The notes under the pieces are model-generated. The model was not told where the DNA came from. It did not search any database and saw only the letters and a program-made list of their open reading frames with translations. Below are positions 9,341 through 18,670 of a stretch of DNA of 26,874 nucleotides, piece by piece. This DNA is from a virus. The position numbers and the translations under genes are program-made. How positions within the stretch are numbered: position 1 is the stretch's first letter; each line of letters opens with the position of its first letter. Location of the stretch: positions 1-26,874 of the IMG/VR virus record IMGVR_UViG_3300046453_000093; one strand, 5' to 3'.

Positions 9341-11551
9341 ATGATTGAAATTGAGGTGAAAATTGATAGATTGGTATGGTCAAGCACAAGCAATGATTTT
9401 AAGATTTATGGTGCTTTGCCTACAAACGAAGATGATATTAACCTACATGATTTGAAATTCAACCAATATAACAATCTTTCAATAAGTGGCGTAATGCCAA
9501 AATTAGAAGTGGGTTCTGTATATAATGTTAAAATGGTAGAAAAGAATAATCCCAAATATGGAATAGGATATGAAGTGCAAAATGTGTTTCAGAACCTACC
9601 AACATCAGTTGATGAACAAAAAGCATACTTATCTACATTATTAACAGAATTGCAAGTTCAAAATATCTATGAAGTATACAATGATGGGGAAGACATTATT
9701 GAACTAATGAAGACCAATAAGTTTGATTACCGTAAAATTAAAGGTATGGGAGAAACAACTTATAATGTTGTTAGAACAAAAGTTGTAGCTAACTTAGAAC
9801 TCCAAGAAGCTTTGATTGCATTGTCAAAATATGGATTAACATACAACATTGTCAGTAAACTTGTTAAAAAATATGGGTCTGCTAAACTAGTGGTTGATAA
9901 AATCACTGAGAATCCATATACACTTACAGAAGTGGATGGAATAGGATTTGCAAAATGTGATACATATGCTTTGAGCATGGGTGTTGAACCAACATCAAAC
10001 TACAGGATTGAAGCCTGTATTAAATACGTGCTAGACGATGTAGGGAATAACTCAGGTCATTCATGGTTGTCTATAACTGGACTAGTAAAGAAATGTACAG
10101 AGATGATGAAAATTGACCAAAAATATTCTGAGGAATATTTAAACAAATATAGTGGTAAGACTTTATACATAAGTGATGATAGAGTGGCTAGGATTAATCT
10201 TTACAATTATGAGAAGTGGATTTCTGAATCCGTCAAGCGACTTCTTTCAACAAAACCAAAACCAGTTGAAAACTTAGATGAAAAAATCAATAAAGCTGAA
10301 GAAAAACAGGGTTTTAATTTTACTGATGAACAAAGAGATGCTATCAAAATGGCTGTTGAAAATAACTTTGTTGTCATAACAGGTAAGGCAGGAACAGGTA
10401 AAACAACCATATTAAAAGGAATTGTAGAAGTATTAAAATCAGATGATGAATTTAAAGATTATTATGCATGTGCGCTGAGTGGAAAAGCGGCTCAACGTAT
10501 TGCTGAAAGTACAGGTCTAAATTCATCAACTATACATAGATTACTAGGTTGGAATGCTGAATCAAATGGTTTCCTTCATGATTATAATAATACATTGCCT
10601 AAAGGCGCAGGTGTACTTGATGAAGCTTCAATGGTAAATAGTTATATTTGCAATGCTTTATTTGGAGCAATGCCAACATGTGGAAAACTTATCGTATTAG
10701 GAGATGTCGAACAACTTGAACCAATTGGGGCAGGAAATGTATTTAAAGACCTAGTTGATAGTAAGTTTGTACCAAAGGTATATCTTACACAAGTTCACAG
10801 ACAGGCAATGAAAAGTGGAATTTTAAGTACTGCCAACAACATAAGAGAAGGTATTCAGTTTAATACGAAAGATAACTATGAAGAAAGAGTTATCGGAGAA
10901 TTAAAAGACCTTCACTTTAAACCATACAGAAAAGTAGAGACAGTTAAAAAGGCGATTATTAAAGCATGTAAACAATATTTGAATGCACCAAACTTTGATT
11001 TGATGAACTTTCAAGTAATTGTGCCACTAAAAAATCGTGGAGAGATTTGCACAAAAAAATTGAATATAGAGTTACAAGAAATATTTAACCCTGAAATGAA
11101 ACCTGTAATTAATAGAAATGGATACGATTTCAAAGAAGGGGACAAAGTAATACAGCAAGGAAACAATTATGATATTAATTGTTGGAATGGAACTCTAGGT
11201 ATTGTCAAGGAAGTGGACACTATCTTAAAGGAAATAACCATCGACTTTGTTGGAGTCGGCAGTGTTAAATATAATCAAGAAGATATGGGACAAATTGATA
11301 TGGCATACGCACTGACTGTACATCGAGTACAGGGAAGTCAGTTTGACAATGTTGTAATAGGATTAGACTATTCTTCATATGTTTTATTGTCAAGACAACT
11401 TGTTTATACTGCACTAACAAGAGCAAGTAAATTGGCAATCCTTATTTGTGAGAACGAAGCTTTGATACATGCCATTCGAACTGATAACGCTTCAAAAAGA
11501 AATACCTTCCTCAAGGACATGTTAGCAGAAAATTTGACAAATGATAAATAA
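9341..11551 (+). CDS. RecD2-like 5'-3' DNA helicase
   Basis: 736 residues from the ATG at 9341, chosen because GAGAGGA lies about nine bases upstream; an in-frame TTG at 9323 would precede that site. The N-terminus has an OB-like segment and a helix-hairpin-helix region (about 85-215). The motor carries Walker A TGKAGTGKTT (near 350), Walker B LDEAS (near 427), GDVEQLEPIGAG, HRQAMKSGI, the motif VHRVQGSQ (near 660) and YTALTRAS (near 690). This order defines the RecD2/TraA superfamily 1B. In phages such enzymes act in genome replication or recombination. First gene of the rightward early block. Confidence 0.9.
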   Translation: MIEIEVKIDRLVWSSTSNDFKIYGALPTNEDDINLHDLKFNQYNNLSISGVMPKLEVGSVYNVKMVEKNNPKYGIGYEVQNVFQNLPTSVDEQKAYLSTLLTELQVQNIYEVYNDGEDIIELMKTNKFDYRKIKGMGETTYNVVRTKVVANLELQEALIALSKYGLTYNIVSKLVKKYGSAKLVVDKITENPYTLTEVDGIGFAKCDTYALSMGVEPTSNYRIEACIKYVLDDVGNNSGHSWLSITGLVKKCTEMMKIDQKYSEEYLNKYSGKTLYISDDRVARINLYNYEKWISESVKRLLSTKPKPVENLDEKINKAEEKQGFNFTDEQRDAIKMAVENNFVVITGKAGTGKTTILKGIVEVLKSDDEFKDYYACALSGKAAQRIAESTGLNSSTIHRLLGWNAESNGFLHDYNNTLPKGAGVLDEASMVNSYICNALFGAMPTCGKLIVLGDVEQLEPIGAGNVFKDLVDSKFVPKVYLTQVHRQAMKSGILSTANNIREGIQFNTKDNYEERVIGELKDLHFKPYRKVETVKKAIIKACKQYLNAPNFDLMNFQVIVPLKNRGEICTKKLNIELQEIFNPEMKPVINRNGYDFKEGDKVIQQGNNYDINCWNGTLGIVKEVDTILKEITIDFVGVGSVKYNQEDMGQIDMAYALTVHRVQGSQFDNVVIGLDYSSYVLLSRQLVYTALTRASKLAILICENEALIHAIRTDNASKRNTFLKDMLAENLTNDK

Positions 11552-13306: not shown

Positions 13307-14551
13307 ATGAATGATTCAAAACTCTATGCGCCTGATACAAATATATTACTAGGTGATATTGGAAATTTAAGCCAATATAGACTAGTACTATTATCGCATA
13401 CTTTAAGGGAACTAGATAAGCACAAATCATCAAGTGATGAAGATTTGGCTTATAGGGCAAGAAAAGCTGTACGCTTTATTAAAAGGAATAGAAAAAATTT
13501 CTCATTTGACCTAAAGAATTATGATGGTTCTGAATTGGGTAGAGATTTTTCTTCATCGTATCAAGATGATAACATATTGAAGGCTTGTGTGGATAACCAA
13601 TATGGCATTATCACAAAAGATGTTCTTTTACAATTGAAAGCAGAAGGATTTGGTATTGAAGTAGTAGATTTAGAAGATGTAAGAATTGAGTCTGCACAAG
13701 AATATACAGGTATCCATAAGGTCTATCTATCAGAGTCAGAATCAGACCAAGAAGAACTTGCAAAAATTTATCAGAATCCCTCTAGTAATAATTATGGTTT
13801 ACTAACAAATCAATACTTAATAGTTTACAACAAGGATAAACCAATAAAAAATAAAGATGGGTCAATTACATATGAAGTTATTGATAAATTTAGATTTAAT
13901 GGCAAGATTTTAGTCAAGCTTAAAATACCTGATAAGAAGATTGTGAAGGCAAAGAATGAGGAACAGGAATGTGCTTTAGACATGTTGTATAATAAAGAGA
14001 TTCCTATCAAAATAATTGCGGGTACATATGGTAGCGGAAAGACATATTTAGCTGTTAAAATGGCAATTTATCACGTTCTTGAAAAGGGTAATCATGGTAA
14101 AATTATGGTTCTTAGGAATCCAATTGGTAGTGGTGAAGCAATTGGATGGCTTAAAGGCGATAAGGAAGATAAGACCAAAGACTTCTTTAAACCATTTGTT
14201 CAGCATCTTGAAGGTGGAGAACAAGAAGCAGAATTACTTGAAACAAGGGGTCAGCTAGTCAAAGAAATACCTTATTATATCAAAGGTCTTTCAATTGAGG
14301 ATACTTTTGTAGTGGTTGATGAAGCTGAGGACTTAACTTCTAAATTATTAAAATTGATTGGTACTAGGTTAGCAGAGAACTCAGAGATTGTCTTTGCGGG
14401 CGATTTCAAACAAGCAGAAGATAAATATATGGCAAGTAATGGTTTGCTACACGCTATTGATTCGTTAAAAGGGAATCCTCTTGTTGGGATTGTAATTTTA
14501 GAGGAAGATGTACGGTCTGAAGCAAGTAAAGTATTTGCCGAAATGATATAA
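13307..14551 (+). CDS. PIN-PhoH (PhoH2-type) RNase/ATPase
   Basis: 414 residues. The N-terminal PIN nuclease domain (1-125) shows the acidic residues in APDTNILLGD (8-17), LRELDKHK (34-41) and the later DDNILKACV and ITKDVLL segments. The PhoH ATPase follows with Walker A IAGTYGSGKTY (near 236-246), VLRNPIGSGE, and Walker B VVVDEAEDLT (near 335), then FAGDFKQAEDKY. Cellular PhoH2 proteins couple RNA unwinding to cleavage; many phages carry PhoH proteins of unsettled role. The ATG has AAGGGTGG 11 bases upstream. In this position it may process transcripts of the structured RNA region that follows, which is speculation from adjacency. Confidence 0.88.
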   Translation: MNDSKLYAPDTNILLGDIGNLSQYRLVLLSHTLRELDKHKSSSDEDLAYRARKAVRFIKRNRKNFSFDLKNYDGSELGRDFSSSYQDDNILKACVDNQYGIITKDVLLQLKAEGFGIEVVDLEDVRIESAQEYTGIHKVYLSESESDQEELAKIYQNPSSNNYGLLTNQYLIVYNKDKPIKNKDGSITYEVIDKFRFNGKILVKLKIPDKKIVKAKNEEQECALDMLYNKEIPIKIIAGTYGSGKTYLAVKMAIYHVLEKGNHGKIMVLRNPIGSGEAIGWLKGDKEDKTKDFFKPFVQHLEGGEQEAELLETRGQLVKEIPYYIKGLSIEDTFVVVDEAEDLTSKLLKLIGTRLAENSEIVFAGDFKQAEDKYMASNGLLHAIDSLKGNPLVGIVILEEDVRSEASKVFAEMI

Positions 14552-14590
14552 TGAATAATTTGATAATTAAAACATCATTTAGTCGGATAG

Positions 14591-14619
14591 TTGACAAGTG
14601 ATAAATAAAATGCTATAAT
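14591..14619 (+). promoter_or_regulatory. Consensus promoter of the RNA island (conserved-spacer type, copy 3)
   Basis: TTGACA (14591-14596), exactly 17 bp and TATAAT (14614-14619): both hexamers are perfect. The spacer AGTGATAAATAAAATGC matches copies 1 and 2. Start of transcription would be near 14626. No protein begins within the next 390 bases. Confidence 0.88.
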
Positions 14620-14696
14620 GTTTATAGATAGAGAATATCTACTAAACAACTTAACTCTCTTTTTACCAAGTTATGAGACTAAAATATAAACTTGTG

Positions 14697-14793
14697 TTCT
14701 AAATTAAGTGTGCAACTGGCGAGAGCCATACAAAGAAGGGTCACTCTCCAAGAAAGTGTGATTACTAGAACTCGTTGCACACTTAATTTAGAA
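14697..14793 (+). ncRNA. Structured RNA element A
   Basis: The ends are perfect 20-bp complements (TTCTAAATTAAGTGTGCAAC at 14697-14716, its partner at 14774-14793). Directly inside the stem is UGGC-GAGA-GCCA (14717-14728), a stem capped by a GNRA tetraloop, and further weaker helices are possible (TCACT with AGTGTGA). It lies about 70 nt after a perfect promoter and has no ORF. A leader hairpin CAAGTT/AACTTG (14667-14694) precedes it. I know no family of this shape; a DNA-level inverted repeat such as a tiny mobile element is the alternative. Confidence 0.65.
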
Positions 14794-14798
14794 AACTA

Positions 14799-14970
14799 TT
14801 TGTTAAATTGAGTGTTTGAGTGTGTGAATAGGCTATATGCCGAAATTCTTGGTGTTTCGCTACCATTAAATGCGAGCCTTAAAAGGTTTAGTTCTATGAC
14901 AATTGAATATTAAAAAGTTGAACGTTGTACTGTTGTGCAATGTATTAATTCACACACTCAATTTAGCAAA
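14799..14970 (+). ncRNA. Structured RNA element B, paralogue of A
   Basis: Five bases after A. Arms TTTGTTAAATTGAGTGT (14799-14815) and ACACTCAATTTAGCAAA (14954-14970) pair over 17 positions with one U-G wobble. The core TAAATT-R-AGTGT and ACACT-Y-AATTTA is shared with A, with an A-U pair in A and G-C in B at the variable position. Inside are CGAAA/TTTCG, a CCTT/AAGG helix and TTGTAC/GTGCAA with a wobble. The 5' arm has TTGAGTGT duplicated in tandem (14808-14823), giving two alternative pairing registers. Function unknown. Confidence 0.6.
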
Positions 14971-15017
14971 TACAAATCATAAATATAATTAAATGGGAAT
15001 AAGGGAGATTGATAAAA

Positions 15018-15650
15018 ATGACAGTTGAAGTAATGTCAATTCAAAGAGGACTTTCGGAATTAAAACTACTTGACAAACGTATTAATAATGCAATGTCAGG
15101 GGCTAAGTTAATTAGTGTTAGAGTGGGCGAAAAACCTGTCATTGGTTACAAGGATGATGAAGATTTTTCCGTTCAAGCAAACGCTAAAATTGATTCGATT
15201 ACTGACCTTATCAAACGTAGGGATGCAATTAAAGGTGCAATTGTCGTAGCAAATGCAACAACACCTGTAAAGGTTGGAGATGAAACAATGACTATTGCAA
15301 CTGCAATAGAGAGAAAAGATTCTATTGTTCATCTAAAAAACCTTCATAATTTATTGCGTAATCAATATGTCACAGCTTTAAATGAGTATCAACGTAAGGA
15401 TGATAGCTTTAAAGCTAATCTTGACAAACACCTTGAAACACTTTACGGAAAAGAGGGTAAAGCTAAAGGTTTGGAAAATAGGGATGCATTAAAACCATTC
15501 CTTGATATGAACGAACCACATTTAGTTGACCCACTCCAATTAAAACAGGTAATGGATAAACTTCAAGAGCAAATTGATGTTTTTGAAAGCGAGTGCGATT
15601 TATCACTCAGCGAGGTAAATGTTAAGACTGACATCACAGTTGAGTATTAG
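15018..15650 (+). CDS. Hypothetical coiled-coil phage protein
   Basis: 210 residues from the ATG at 15018, about ten bases after GGGAG; the in-frame TTG at 15009 is too close to that site. The sequence is nearly all helical with heptad-like spacing (LSELKLLDKRINNAM, IDSITDLIKRRDAIKGAI, AIERKDSIVHLKNLHNLLR, LKQVMDKLQEQIDVFESE), and a short beta-like VGDETMTI insert. No enzyme motif, signal or membrane segment. The middle recalls two-helix proteins that wrap or tether, but I do not recognise a family. It is embedded between structured RNA elements and reads from the same strong promoter, so it may be an RNA-binding or RNA-packaging partner; that is inference from context only. Confidence 0.7.
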   Translation: MTVEVMSIQRGLSELKLLDKRINNAMSGAKLISVRVGEKPVIGYKDDEDFSVQANAKIDSITDLIKRRDAIKGAIVVANATTPVKVGDETMTIATAIERKDSIVHLKNLHNLLRNQYVTALNEYQRKDDSFKANLDKHLETLYGKEGKAKGLENRDALKPFLDMNEPHLVDPLQLKQVMDKLQEQIDVFESECDLSLSEVNVKTDITVEY

Positions 15651-15658
15651 AATCTAAA

Positions 15659-15677
15659 AGGGTGGGACAACCACCCT
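15659..15677 (+). terminator. Hairpin after the coiled-coil gene, weak terminator
   Basis: AGGGTGG-GACAA-CCACCCT is a perfect stem eight bases after the stop codon. It lacks a T run, so it may be a processing or stability element more than a terminator. Confidence 0.45.
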
Positions 15678-15689
15678 ATATATCAAATA

Positions 15690-16121
15690 ATTATTACCAA
15701 TTTGTCGAAAACCACGAACTTCAATACGCCTTTATACAAGCGATATTGTATTTATATTTTTGATACTCAGTATCAAGACTAAAGAATTTAGGATGATACC
15801 TAAAATATAACTCATTAAGAGTTGCTATATTACAGGGTATGTCATATAGACGTACATTACATATGCGGAGAAATTCCAATCCTAAAAGTTCAAAGTTGAG
15901 AAATCAAGTATCAGAGTTCAAGATTCAAAACTCTTTTACCGCAATGGGCGGTTCAAAGTTTAGGTCTTAAAGGTGAAAGTTATTCAAAAAACTTGGATTT
16001 AAAGGTTATACCTAGTGCTTATTGATAGACTAAGTGGTTATCCTCCAAGCTGACAAGTTGGTAATAGTTACAAAACTGCCACAGACAATTGGGAGAGTTA
16101 TATCTGTGGTAGTTTTGTAAC
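15690..16121 (+). ncRNA. Hairpin-rich non-coding stretch C, candidate large structured RNA
   Basis: No credible ORF in over 400 nt, but many perfect local stems: TTGATAC/GTATCAA (15760-15776), TTTAGG/CCTAAA (15787-15804), AACTC/GAGTT (15809-15823), GAGTT/AACTC (15914-15933), ACCGC/GCGGT (15938-15952), and a closing 19-bp stem GTTACAAAACTGCCACAGA (16067-16085) with its partner at 16103-16121, containing one G-U wobble. The density of stems and the site next to tRNA genes in a phage recall large ornate phage RNAs such as GOLLD or ROOL; I cannot show homology. Confidence 0.5.
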
Positions 16122-16158
16122 TTAATAGTTATAAATAAGGGATGAAGGGGATTGAAAA

Positions 16159-16341
16159 ATGAGAAATAAAAAGTATTATGCTATCTTGCAAGAAAAGTTT
16201 AAAAATGCTCAAGGCGAAACAATCATTAAGGAATACGTTCACGATGTTGAAGGCTTTGCCCCTATGATTGCTAGAAGTGAAGCAGAAGCATATGCAAAAG
16301 AAAGTGGAATGACAGTTTCATTATTCTGTGCATACAAATAA
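16159..16341 (+). CDS. Small hypothetical protein inside RNA island
   Basis: 60 residues with AAGGGG about nine bases before the ATG. It begins MRNKKYYAILQEKFKNAQGE and ends SLFCAYK, and has the composition of a small alpha-beta protein; the ARSEAEAYAKESG segment suggests an amphipathic helix. No family recognised. It sits 37 bases after the 19-bp stem of element C and is flanked on both sides by hairpin-rich non-coding DNA. Confidence 0.6.
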   Translation: MRNKKYYAILQEKFKNAQGETIIKEYVHDVEGFAPMIARSEAEAYAKESGMTVSLFCAYK

Positions 16342-16350
16342 AGTGATTAT

Positions 16351-16530
16351 TTCGCAATTAGCGAATTAAATTAGTTCTTCGCTGTGGAGGAATTGAAAAA
16401 AAGCACAGAATATTGATGGTCTTTACGACCAAGCCTTAATAGGCATAAGTTTTTCACCCAAAGGTCTTGTTAGAGCGAAGGCACTTGTCCTTGCAAGATG
16501 AAAACTAGTTTTAGGTTGTGGTAGTAATTA
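16351..16530 (+). ncRNA. Hairpin-rich stretch D upstream of the tRNAs
   Basis: TTCGC-AATTA-GCGAA (16351-16365) is a perfect stem nine bases after the preceding stop. CTTCGCT (16378-16384) can close against AGCGAAG (16474-16480), enclosing GGTC-TTTAC-GACC (16418-16430) and GCCT-TAAT-AGGC (16433-16444). AAAACTAGTTTT (16501-16512) is palindromic. No ORF with a ribosome binding site is present. Either a separate structured RNA or a leader of the tRNA transcript. Confidence 0.4.
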
Positions 16531-16536
16531 ATCATG

Positions 16537-16565
16537 TTGACAAGTGGACATGATTTTCCTAAAAC
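16537..16565 (+). promoter_or_regulatory. Candidate tRNA promoter
   Basis: TTGACA (16537-16542), 17 bp and TAAAAC (16560-16565). The stem GCACATA/TATGTGC (16570-16597) lies between it and the tRNA. CATGT and ACATG also form an inverted repeat over the -35. Confidence 0.5.
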
Positions 16566-16606
16566 ATTGGCACATAAGTAGTGTGGGTTATATGTGCTGT
16601 TTACAC

Positions 16607-16680
16607 GACTCCTTAGCTCAGTTGGTTAGAGCGTCAGCCTGTTAAGCTGAATGTCGTAAGTTCAAGTCTTACAGGAGTCT
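16607..16680 (+). tRNA. tRNA-Asn (GUU)
   Basis: A complete cloverleaf: acceptor GACTCCT pairs with AGGAGTC, D stem GCTC/GAGC, anticodon stem TCAGC/GCTGA around loop CTGTTAA (anticodon GTT), T stem GTAAG/CTTAC around TTCAAGT. The discriminator is T and no CCA is encoded. Probably compensates host codon supply during lytic growth. Confidence 0.93.
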
Positions 16681-16787
16681 TAGTTCATTCAAATCCTCCT
16701 CGTCAGTTGATAAAATGAACTTGGTTTGCTGTTGTACCACAAACAACGGTGTTACAAGTTACAATTGTGGGGTAATTCCCACACCAA
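16681..16787 (+). other. Hairpin-rich spacer between tRNAs
   Basis: AGTTCATT/AATGAACT (16682-16721) and TGTGGG/CCCACA (16766-16783) are perfect stems; GTTTG/CAAAC lies between them. They may guide tRNA processing. No ORF is supported here. Confidence 0.45.
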
Positions 16788-16859
16788 TGGGGTGTAATTC
16801 AGTGGTAGAAGGCAACATTTGGGATGTTGAGGTCGCAGGTTCGAATCCTGTCACTCCAA
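16788..16859 (+). tRNA. tRNA-Pro (UGG)
   Basis: Acceptor TGGGGTG pairs with CACTCCA (one G-U), a weak D stem TTC/GAA, anticodon stem CAACA/TGTTG around loop TTTGGGA (anticodon TGG), T stem GCAGG/CCTGT around TTCGAAT. No encoded CCA. The T-arm closely resembles bacterial tRNA-Pro. Confidence 0.9.
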
Positions 16860-16889
16860 TAAACAACAATAGGAAAGAAGGTAGAACGA

Positions 16890-17102
16890 ATGTACGGAAT
16901 CAGAAAAGTAAAAACGTTTCATGGTGTCAAATATGCTGTAGTAAATTTAAAGACAAAAAATGTTTTAGGTAAAGATGGGAAAACAACAAAGTTTTTCTCA
17001 AAAGAAATTGACGTGGTTGAGACTAAAGATAAAGTTTTAGTATTCGATTTCACCTTAGAAGGTTTACAACAGGCTAGAGAATGGAAAGCCCAATTAAAAT
17101 AA
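16890..17102 (+). CDS. Small hypothetical protein
   Basis: 70 residues; GAAAGAAGG precedes the ATG by about nine bases. Beginning MYGIRKVKTFHGVKYAVVNL, it looks like a beta-rich fold with many Lys, and a C-terminal amphipathic helix (LEGLQQAREWKAQL). It could be a small nucleic-acid-binding protein, but no family is recognised. The next gene follows at once, so they form a pair ended by the terminator at 17344. Confidence 0.6.
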   Translation: MYGIRKVKTFHGVKYAVVNLKTKNVLGKDGKTTKFFSKEIDVVETKDKVLVFDFTLEGLQQAREWKAQLK

Positions 17103-17119
17103 TCAGAGGTGATATTCAA

Positions 17120-17320
17120 GTGGCAACCGTAACAAAAGCATTGCAAAATAATAATAAAACAATCGGTCTTGTATGGGAAACAAATGGGAAAGAAGTTATT
17201 GTTTTAGATAGAGATGTTGAAATTGATATAAATTGTGGGATTTCAATTATTGATGCAATTACAAATAAAGAAACATATTTAGATATTATAGATTTGATAG
17301 CAGAAGCACTAGACAAATGA
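17120..17320 (+). CDS. Small hypothetical protein
   Basis: 66 residues from GTG at 17120, chosen because GAGGTGA ends eight bases upstream; the longer frame from 17081 would overlap the preceding gene without a ribosome binding site. The product has a beta hairpin-like KTIGLVWETNGKEVIVLD and an acidic, Ile-rich C-terminus. Not recognised. Confidence 0.6.
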   Translation: MATVTKALQNNNKTIGLVWETNGKEVIVLDRDVEIDINCGISIIDAITNKETYLDIIDLIAEALDK

Positions 17321-17343
17321 GATAAAAACAGTATTTTAATTGG

Positions 17344-17368
17344 TCACACCTTTCAGGTGTGATTTTTT
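17344..17368 (+). terminator. Strong rho-independent terminator
   Basis: TCACACCT-TTC-AGGTGTGA (17344-17362) is a perfect 8-bp stem followed by six T. It separates the tRNA/small-gene unit from the packaging genes. Confidence 0.9.
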
Positions 17369-17395
17369 GTTTTTTAGGAAAAAGGGGGAATAGGG

Positions 17396-18670
17396 TTGAG
17401 AAGTTTCACGAACAGAGAAGGTATGACCATAACAGTTGATGAAGAACATTTGGAAAAGGCAGTGGAAGTAAAATTAGCGCTCCAAGAGAAATCCCCATCT
17501 AGAAGAATTTCTTGGTCAGAGCATAAAAAAGTTATGGAAGAAGAAGGTGTATTTAATTCTGACACTTCAGAGAGTTATAGATGCCTTGTAAAAGATTATC
17601 AAAAAATTACAGGCAAGTTAAATAATTTACCAAAACATGCTGACTTAATCTTTACTTCAAAATTGGATGCCATGAAACGTATTGTTGGTGATTTTCGTTT
17701 TGAAAAACAAATCAATCAAGATATTTTAAGGGAAATAAATAAAAATATCAGAGAAATGTCACGTACAGCAGTGATGGTAGATGAATTTAGAAATATTATC
17801 TTGGACGACATAGACTTTAGTGTTCCTCATTATATTTACGAACAACCAAAGCCAAGCAGTGGTACAAAGGGAATATTAATTGTAACTGATTGGCATATCG
17901 GTGTTAAAGTTGACAATTGTCTAGGGAATTATTACAATCTTGAAATCGCTCAAAAAAGATTAGAAGAATTAAAGCGAATTACATTGGATAAATGTAATAC
18001 ACACAACATTTCTGACTTATACATTATTGGATTGGGAGATTGGGTTGAACACATGTATATGAGAGACAACCAATCACAAGATTGTGAATTTGGTGTAAAT
18101 ATGCAGATAGCTAAAGCAGGTAAATTGTTATTTGATTTAATCATCTCTCTTGCTGAATATGCGAATATTAACTTTGCTAGTATAGGTGGAAATCACGATA
18201 GAGCAAATGGTGACAAAAAGAAAAATCATGATGGAGATAATGCAAATGTTGTAATATCAGAAAATATCAAAGATTTAATAGAGGTTCTTAAATCAAATAG
18301 TACCAAAAAGTTGAGAAGAATTAATATGTTGGATGTACAGCCTGATTCAACAGAAATAAAATTAAAGATTAATAACAAGAATTTTAAATTTTTACATGGC
18401 GATAAAGACAGAGGTGACATGAAGAAAAGATTGAAGGCACATATTTCTATGGATAATGAATTTATTGATTATCTAATTCATGGTCATCTGCATCACTATT
18501 ACTGTATTGATGATGATAATGGCAGAATGGTAATTGGTGTTGGTTGCCTAATGGGTAAAAATAATTATAGCAAGGACATTGGTGCAACAACTGACGCAAG
18601 CCAAGCTTTTATCGTTGTAGAAGAAAATGGAGATATAATACCTATTAGAATTGGATTACAAATAATCTAA
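17396..18670 (+). CDS. Metallophosphoesterase, phage SbcD/Mre11-like fold
   Basis: 424 residues, TTG start behind GGGGG with seven bases. An N-terminal region of about 150 residues is helical (KKVMEEEGV, and a segment rich in Arg and Asn), possibly for DNA or protein contacts. The calcineurin-like core has DWHIG (near 165), GLGDWVEH (near 212), GGNHDR (near 264), FLHGDKDRGD (near 331) and HGHLHH (near 361), which supply the two-metal site. Phosphatase or nuclease action on DNA ends is the usual inference; genes of this type often sit next to the terminase in Firmicutes phages. Substrate unknown. Confidence 0.85.
   Translation: MRSFTNREGMTITVDEEHLEKAVEVKLALQEKSPSRRISWSEHKKVMEEEGVFNSDTSESYRCLVKDYQKITGKLNNLPKHADLIFTSKLDAMKRIVGDFRFEKQINQDILREINKNIREMSRTAVMVDEFRNIILDDIDFSVPHYIYEQPKPSSGTKGILIVTDWHIGVKVDNCLGNYYNLEIAQKRLEELKRITLDKCNTHNISDLYIIGLGDWVEHMYMRDNQSQDCEFGVNMQIAKAGKLLFDLIISLAEYANINFASIGGNHDRANGDKKKNHDGDNANVVISENIKDLIEVLKSNSTKKLRRINMLDVQPDSTEIKLKINNKNFKFLHGDKDRGDMKKRLKAHISMDNEFIDYLIHGHLHHYYCIDDDNGRMVIGVGCLMGKNNYSKDIGATTDASQAFIVVEENGDIIPIRIGLQII

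Follow-up and report, generated by a model that had tools for sequence, protein, structure and literature searches.

Within the window analysed here, which comprises the first 26,874 bases of the 90,874-bp IMG/VR virus record IMGVR_UViG_3300046453_000093, an island of structured RNA, small genes and tRNAs is flanked by a PhoH-like gene and an exonuclease gene, and it contains the gene of a phrog_1491 / T5.085-family protein (15018-15650, + strand; 210 aa from the ATG at 15018, 213 aa from the TTG at 15009) followed by a large RNA with an array of seven-nucleotide repeats, or heptads, designated RNA-3 (15688-16070, +). That RNA-3 is a real, conserved RNA linked to this gene is well supported by sequence comparison, and together with the phrog_1491 protein it is proposed, with a probability of about 0.62, to constitute a two-gene RNA-protein module, in which a ribonucleoprotein (RNP) with one protomer per heptad would act in the biology of tRNA islands. 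The first-pass annotation of this DNA had suggested that two small genes accompany an undescribed set of phage RNAs. The presence of at least one large RNA not described before is indeed indicated by the covariation of its helices P1 and P2, by a pseudoknot and by the lack of an Rfam match, but the island is mainly a gene and RNA module; both open reading frames (ORFs) are present, but the first proves to encode a widespread conserved protein that is the key to the island.

The linkage of gene and RNA was followed in loci gathered by similarity searches, which are not a random sample. An array score of at least 22 directly 3' of the gene was obtained in 72 of 75 non-redundant loci, against 0/75 for the gene bodies and 0/75 for dinucleotide shuffles; in the remaining three the array lies 1.5 kb (KLEB27-3) or 1.1 kb (L163) further on, or is weak (a Proteus phage, 18.3). 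When 85,000 species genomes were searched with the RNA pattern alone, 117 matches were returned, 15 of them with an array (score at least 17), and the gene was found 118-277 nt upstream in 15/15 array-bearing matches and in 0/102 of the array-less ones; among the viral matches to the pattern the gene lies within ~0.5 kb in most, and the rest are mostly cut off. Among the cyanobacteria and Bacillota sampled, the gene is present in ~1% of genomes, and the full-length phrog_1491 in random genomes of these groups was accompanied by the array in 7/7 cases, as was the gene remnant L322.

The relatives of phrog_1491 found by tblastn belong to 701 phage records and 13 plasmids, and the module is also located on the chromosomes of Calothrix, Hyella, Domibacillus, Bacillus badius, Paenibacillus and others, some of which copies may lie in prophages; the module is, therefore, not phage-only. 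In the relatives first inspected, the gene stands nearly always amid accessory genes, often beside tRNAs, with a gene-free stretch of ~360-550 nt or more 3' of it in nearly all. In phage T5, T5.085 at 43505-44143 (- strand) is followed by the RNA at ~43504-43140 in an unannotated gap, with an array score of 44.3, 12 units, the P2 arms CCUAG/CUAGG and a plain P1. The T5 module stretch is matched at the DNA level by 447 phage records, 434 of them over at least 80% of its length, and nearly all of these are T5-like.

The RNAs of the family are ~260-450 nt long and share a plan that reads, from 5' to 3', P1, (A)CGAA(A), usually an H-type pseudoknot, variable arms, the heptads, (GAU)AAAAUCC with P2, GGCUG, and P1'. 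When the 5' end was paired with the sequence behind GGCUG, the longest helix measured 12.2 bp for cognate strands versus 7.3 bp for swapped ones (p=3e-34, n=67), and the mean pseudoknot score was 14.5 against 8.7 in shuffles (p=4e-21). P2 is represented by 30 different arm pairs, and 99.3% of its cells are paired in the 58-sequence alignment. The covariation that the first-pass annotation had asked for in relatives was found, since the whole-structure score, which covers P2 and a 3-bp inner helix (65.5% paired), was 0.618, compared with 0.201 in shuffled and at most 0.211 in slid alignments. The P2 arms in the cognate and swapped comparison were chosen partly by pairing, and an independent check of P2 therefore matters; in a pattern search that left the two middle P2 pairs free, these were complementary in 22/22 viral matches of the first pattern, and in 8/8 array-bearing versus 13/72 array-less genome matches that were scored.

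The periodicity of the array was seen in base identity at lags of 7, 14 and 21 nt, with z=+26.7, +20.4 and +13.2, respectively, over 68 sequences (the window alone gives z=+3.6 at lag 7), and no lag peak in base identity appeared in the gene control. The unit may be written AAAGNUY, with the frequencies A(.96)A(.77)A(.61)G(.56)N U(.85)Y(.82), and 597 of 737 steps are of exactly 7 nt. Most arrays hold 11-12 units over ~91 nt, usually as 7 units, a ~9-nt spacer or hairpin insertion and 4 units, and the distance from the array start to the P2 anchor is 89-93 nt in many sequences (median 92.5 nt). The array is A-rich and has no obvious helices, and the open frames of the RNA region are not longer than those in shuffles (46 versus 50 aa). 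A terminator was found at most 70 nt from P1' in 24/67 loci. No Rfam match for the family was obtained in 22 relative loci at the gathering thresholds, in five loci at E<=1, or in the T5 region; likewise, the literature, in mostly open-access coverage, held no prior description of T5.085, of a DIP1984 function, of a heptanucleotide-repeat phage RNA or of a phage permuted tRNA.

The copy in the window fits this plan, with the gene upstream and all parts on the + strand. Its P1 consists of 15688-15705 paired with 16053-16070 (18 bp including G-U pairs), and adjoining it is the conserved motif CGAAAAC (15706-15712). The H-type pseudoknot (15727-15751) is composed of S1, with CGC at 15727-15729 and GCG at 15740-15742, and S2, with ATACAA at 15734-15739 and TTGTAT at 15746-15751; its position and form are as in the relatives, but with 3+6 bp it stays under the score cut-off of at least 12. 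The variable arms (15752-15884), replaced in some relatives by a tRNA or tRNA-like domain, lead to block 1 of the array (15885-15933), whose 7 units are AAAGTTC, AAAGTTG, AGAAATC, AAGTATC, AGAGTTC, AAGATTC and AAAACTC. The hairpin ACCGCAATGGGCGGT (15938-15952) occupies the place of the ~9-nt spacer of most relatives, and block 2 (15955-15982) has the 4 units AAAGTTT, AGGTCTT, AAAGGTG and AAAGTTA. The P2 5' strand CTTGG (15992-15996) pairs with CCAAG (16045-16049), and the 3' strand together with the CTG that corresponds to the GGCUG motif of the relatives extends over 16045-16052, up to the 3' strand of P1.

The protein partner is assigned by a phrog_1491 profile match (E=1.2e-63) that aligns residues 8-212 with profile positions 4-210 of 211, that is, over the full length. 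Scans for exact peptides from the phrog_1491 and PhoH proteins of the window returned nothing; the profile alignment was successful. The AlphaFold (AF2) model is a coiled coil of long helices (pLDDT 95.2), and the sole solved relative is the DIP1984 protein, PDB 3kdq, reached by profile at E=0.0012 and, as the best PDB match in the fold search, at E=4.8e-3 (probability 1.00). The cut-offs of the DUF6847/DIP1984 families PF20935 and NF038048 are missed (14.0 versus 27 bits and 13.3 versus 70 bits), the phrog_1491 protein is longer, and cellular DIP1984/DUF6847 genes, considered as further carriers of RNA-3, had an array beside them in 0/14 loci; profile and model suggest that phrog_1491 is a distant relative of the DIP1984 coiled-coil proteins only. 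The label 'tail fiber' that the family bears has no support here and appears to be wrong, the predicted protein being a compact coiled coil without tail-fibre matches, whose neighbours are mostly tRNAs and accessory genes. Proteins of 560 aa from Mimiviridae and Yasminevirus (BFVD A0A5B8IDQ8 and A0A5K0U6K5) resemble the phrog_1491 fold with a TMq of 0.62-0.67 and weak E-values.

The connection with tRNAs is seen in 42/67 loci with tRNAs within 3 kb (mean 3.1), and in 20/67 a tRNA follows the RNA at a distance of at most 350 nt. In several relatives the variable arm consists of a tRNA (L317, tRNA-Gly, 2174-2245, and L152), a decayed tRNA (Hyella, Xenococcaceae), an anticodon arm only (Calothrix), or a T-arm only (XD2, L138, L150). 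In Erwinia phage Deimos-Minion and in L133 it is a circularly permuted tRNA with the order 3' half, acceptor loop, 5' half, which ARAGORN calls only after manual re-joining of the halves and not in the original form; the permuted tRNAs lie at ~4225-4310 of L079 and ~3710-3800 of L133. The intact, decayed or anticodon-arm-only tRNAs within the RNA of the cyanobacterial loci L317, L271, L288, L315 and L280 occur inside tRNA clusters, the Calothrix locus L315 having more than 12 tRNAs.

In the proposed mechanism, the gene and the RNA would be co-transcribed from the promoter at 14591, and processing around P1 would free the RNA. An oligomer, either the coiled-coil phrog_1491 protein or another one, would then bind the array with one protomer per 7 nt; such binding is offered as the reason why the step is strictly 7 nt, why the array length is nearly constant and why insertions between the blocks are hairpins. 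The array would thereby set the size of the resulting RNP. P1, the pseudoknot and P2 may brace the ends of the array, and the variable arm may serve as a display site, sometimes for a tRNA. As the weakest step, the RNP would act in the tRNA-island biology of phages and of cyanobacterial tRNA clusters for instance as a carrier, protector or mimic of tRNAs during infection; perhaps it supports or protects translation in large phages rich in tRNAs, a guess to be given modest weight. Tentative and rather doubtful is the more specific picture of ~12 subunits of one protein that wind along, or bind as a ring, an RNA ruler of ~12 heptads that is closed by P1/P2 and can display an arm consisting of a tRNA or tRNA-like domain. 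Mechanistic analogues exist, as TRAP-type rings bind repeated RNA motifs and some nucleoproteins bind 7 nt per protomer; regular short repeats, each likely to receive one protomer, are the common trait, while no sequence relation is claimed.

Several observations weigh against the module as so conceived. An array score is also obtained on the reverse strand of the RNA region in 7/75 loci, probably because the motif is partly self-complementary. No tRNA lies within 3 kb in 25/67 loci and the variable arm is not consistent in its tRNA content, and the role of tRNAs may therefore be secondary. The closest TerL relatives, L007 and L052, are devoid of the whole module, which is thus dispensable in the phage group of the window. 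Besides, RNA-3 of the window is among the more diverged copies, as the AAAUCC before P2 has become AAAAAA and the pseudoknot is weak, and a conserved repeat of 7 nt could have a use unrelated to the phrog_1491 protein.

The resemblance to the giant phage RNAs, which the first-pass annotation had drawn, invites the explanation that the RNA, like GOLLD and ROOL, forms a cage or scaffold by self-assembly and that phrog_1491 is a hitch-hiker, a cargo or a maturation factor. The likeness is genuine in that a large, ornate phage RNA lies near tRNA islands (the 42/67 loci given above) and sometimes holds tRNAs in its variable part, as GOLLD is reported to do in its linker (PMC12286853), which is a parallel and not homology; pseudoknots are shared with ROOL. 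However, the array is A-rich and without obvious helices, and gene and RNA almost never part. ROOL forms RNA octamers without a known protein partner and its description mentions no heptad array (PMC12286853). The RNA-3 family, at 260-450 nt, also differs from GOLLD, of more than 800 nt, by its protein gene, its heptad array and its other helices; to our knowledge, GOLLD likewise has no known protein partner, and assembly of the RNA alone is judged unlikely. Since Rfam 15 found in the window the two tRNAs alone, plus chance matches, even at E<=10, and the gathering scores of the covariance models were not reached, the RNAs are not GOLLD, ROOL, OLE or raiA, and of the earlier comparison the position near tRNAs is what holds. 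It is quite unlikely, too, that RNA-3 is no separate RNA but a cis-acting element of the 3' untranslated region, which would govern the autoregulation or stability of the phrog_1491 messenger RNA or control the next gene. Its fixed same-strand place behind the gene and the presence of only weak promoter matches, with no strong promoter, between gene and RNA in the window would agree with this, but the size of ~260-450 nt with a closed P1, the array-gene distance of 1.1-1.5 kb in two loci, the varied downstream genes among phages and the terminators or tRNAs right behind P1', which define a 3' end, speak for an RNA of its own.

The near-constant length of ~12 units of 7 nt, and the location of the module just upstream of the portal genes in BM15 and CM1, might mean that the array binds another ring protein of host or phage, such as the 12-fold portal or neck ring, as an assembly ruler or packaging RNA; this is very unlikely in view of the modules on chromosomes where head genes are not evident in the vicinity (Calothrix, Hyella, Domibacillus, Bacillus badius) and of a unit count that is mostly 11-13 and not strictly 12. 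Least probable of all is a type III-like toxin-antitoxin system, where the repeat RNA would neutralise the linked protein, although a small protein and a repeat RNA are linked on phages, plasmids and chromosomes alike. The RNA stands behind and not before the gene, the protein has a coiled-coil fold and no match to toxin families, including ToxN-like ones, and the heptads are far shorter than the pseudoknot repeats of ToxI, so that membership in type III toxin-antitoxin systems was rejected. The RNA-protein module remains the preferred reading.

Other RNAs of tRNA regions were also compared. The skipping-rope RNA (RF02924), a separate family of ~80 nt without a match to RNA-3, is found between the gene and the heptad-array RNA in phage Jenst (L064, 5625-5702), and Lactococcus phage AM8 has a tmRNA and a skipping-rope RNA in the same tRNA region (L080, 49-397 and 715-793, respectively). 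The T5 RNAX (misc_RNA 40848-41566, AY543070), an annotated stable RNA from the tRNA region of T5 whose function is unknown, was rejected as a homologue of RNA-3, as it lies in another place and has no heptad array (score 7.5 versus 44.3).

The remaining features of the island bear out most of what had been described at first reading. The perfect promoter is a sigma-70-type TTGACA-17-TATAAT with an extended -10 TG (14591-14619, +; 12/12 match), one of two 12/12 sites in the 90,874-bp record, the second being within an ORF, and it is probably the start of the whole unit. Near copies of this element of ~30-40 nt are located at 11534 and 74765(-) of the record, and together with the one at 14591 these near-identical elements, TTGACAAgTGATAAATAAAATGcTATAATg, suggest a real promoter family of the phage; in total, promoter-like matches in the stretch are no more numerous than chance would give (17 versus 12.1 expected, sd 3.5). 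As had been stated, no gene lies between the promoter and the ORF start at 15009/15018, and structured stretches alternate with the two ORFs (15009-15650 and 16159-16341) up to the two tRNAs, in the order RNA-1, RNA-2, the 210/213-aa gene, RNA-3, a 60-aa ORF, RNA-4, tRNA-Asn (GUU; 16607-16680, +), tRNA-Pro (UGG; 16788-16859, +) and two small genes. The fold z-scores, computed against dinucleotide shuffles, are -8.69 for 14628-15008, -8.00 for 15651-16150 and -3.30 for 16342-16606, and merely -1.90 for the inter-tRNA spacer. The end of the unit is probably the intrinsic-terminator-like site at 17342-17364, the sole such site on the + strand within 14400-17400. Direct DNA relatives of the island were sought by blastn, and the matches were to the tRNAs alone; in the closest TerL relatives the PhoH-exonuclease interval is filled by HNH-like and other genes instead of the island. 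The TerL gene itself is split by ~1.3 kb after residue ~109 in L042, L043, L044, L046, L047 and L059, probably by an intron or intein-like insertion.

Among the perfect stems noted earlier, the two longest helices are real and belong to the leader. RNA-1 (14694-14796, +) is an orphan hairpin of ~100 nt closed by a helix of ~21-23 bp (14694-14716 with 14774-14796), and RNA-2 (14797-14974, +) is an element of ~175 nt with a closing helix of ~19-25 bp (14797ff with ~14974). The pseudoknot-like core of RNA-2, TGGTGTTTCGCTACCATTAAATGCGA (~14849-14875), is common to the phage loci L096 (5369-5394), L049 (5456) and L018 (5737), which are otherwise unlike, and is possibly a second RNA family; apart from this short match, no relatives of RNA-1 and RNA-2 were found in phages, and the plasmid search gave matches at chance level. 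A strong leader upstream of the gene was rejected as a general feature, the window having z=-9.4, L121 -7.1 and the others mostly above -4. The long near-perfect hairpin without a U-run directly 3' of RNA-3 (16067-16121, +) is perhaps an RNase III site dividing RNA-3 from the 60-aa ORF (16159-16341, +), for which neither a family nor relatives were found. RNA-4 (16342-16606, +; z=-3.3), a moderately structured leader of the tRNAs, is an orphan without relatives, and family building was unsuccessful for RNA-1, RNA-2 and RNA-4 alike.

A large RNA that is almost never separated from its protein partner has apparently been overlooked in T5 and hundreds of its sequenced relatives, hidden by the 'tail fiber' label and an empty-looking intergenic gap. 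Its heptad-repeat architecture is matched by no described RNA that was found, and in phages and cyanobacteria its presence is often a sign of a tRNA island. It could reveal what some of the still unexplained RNA close to phage tRNA clusters does. If true, an RNP of ~12 subunits on ~12 heptads would represent a new kind of RNA-scaffolded protein assembly in large tailed phages, T5 included, and in some bacteria.

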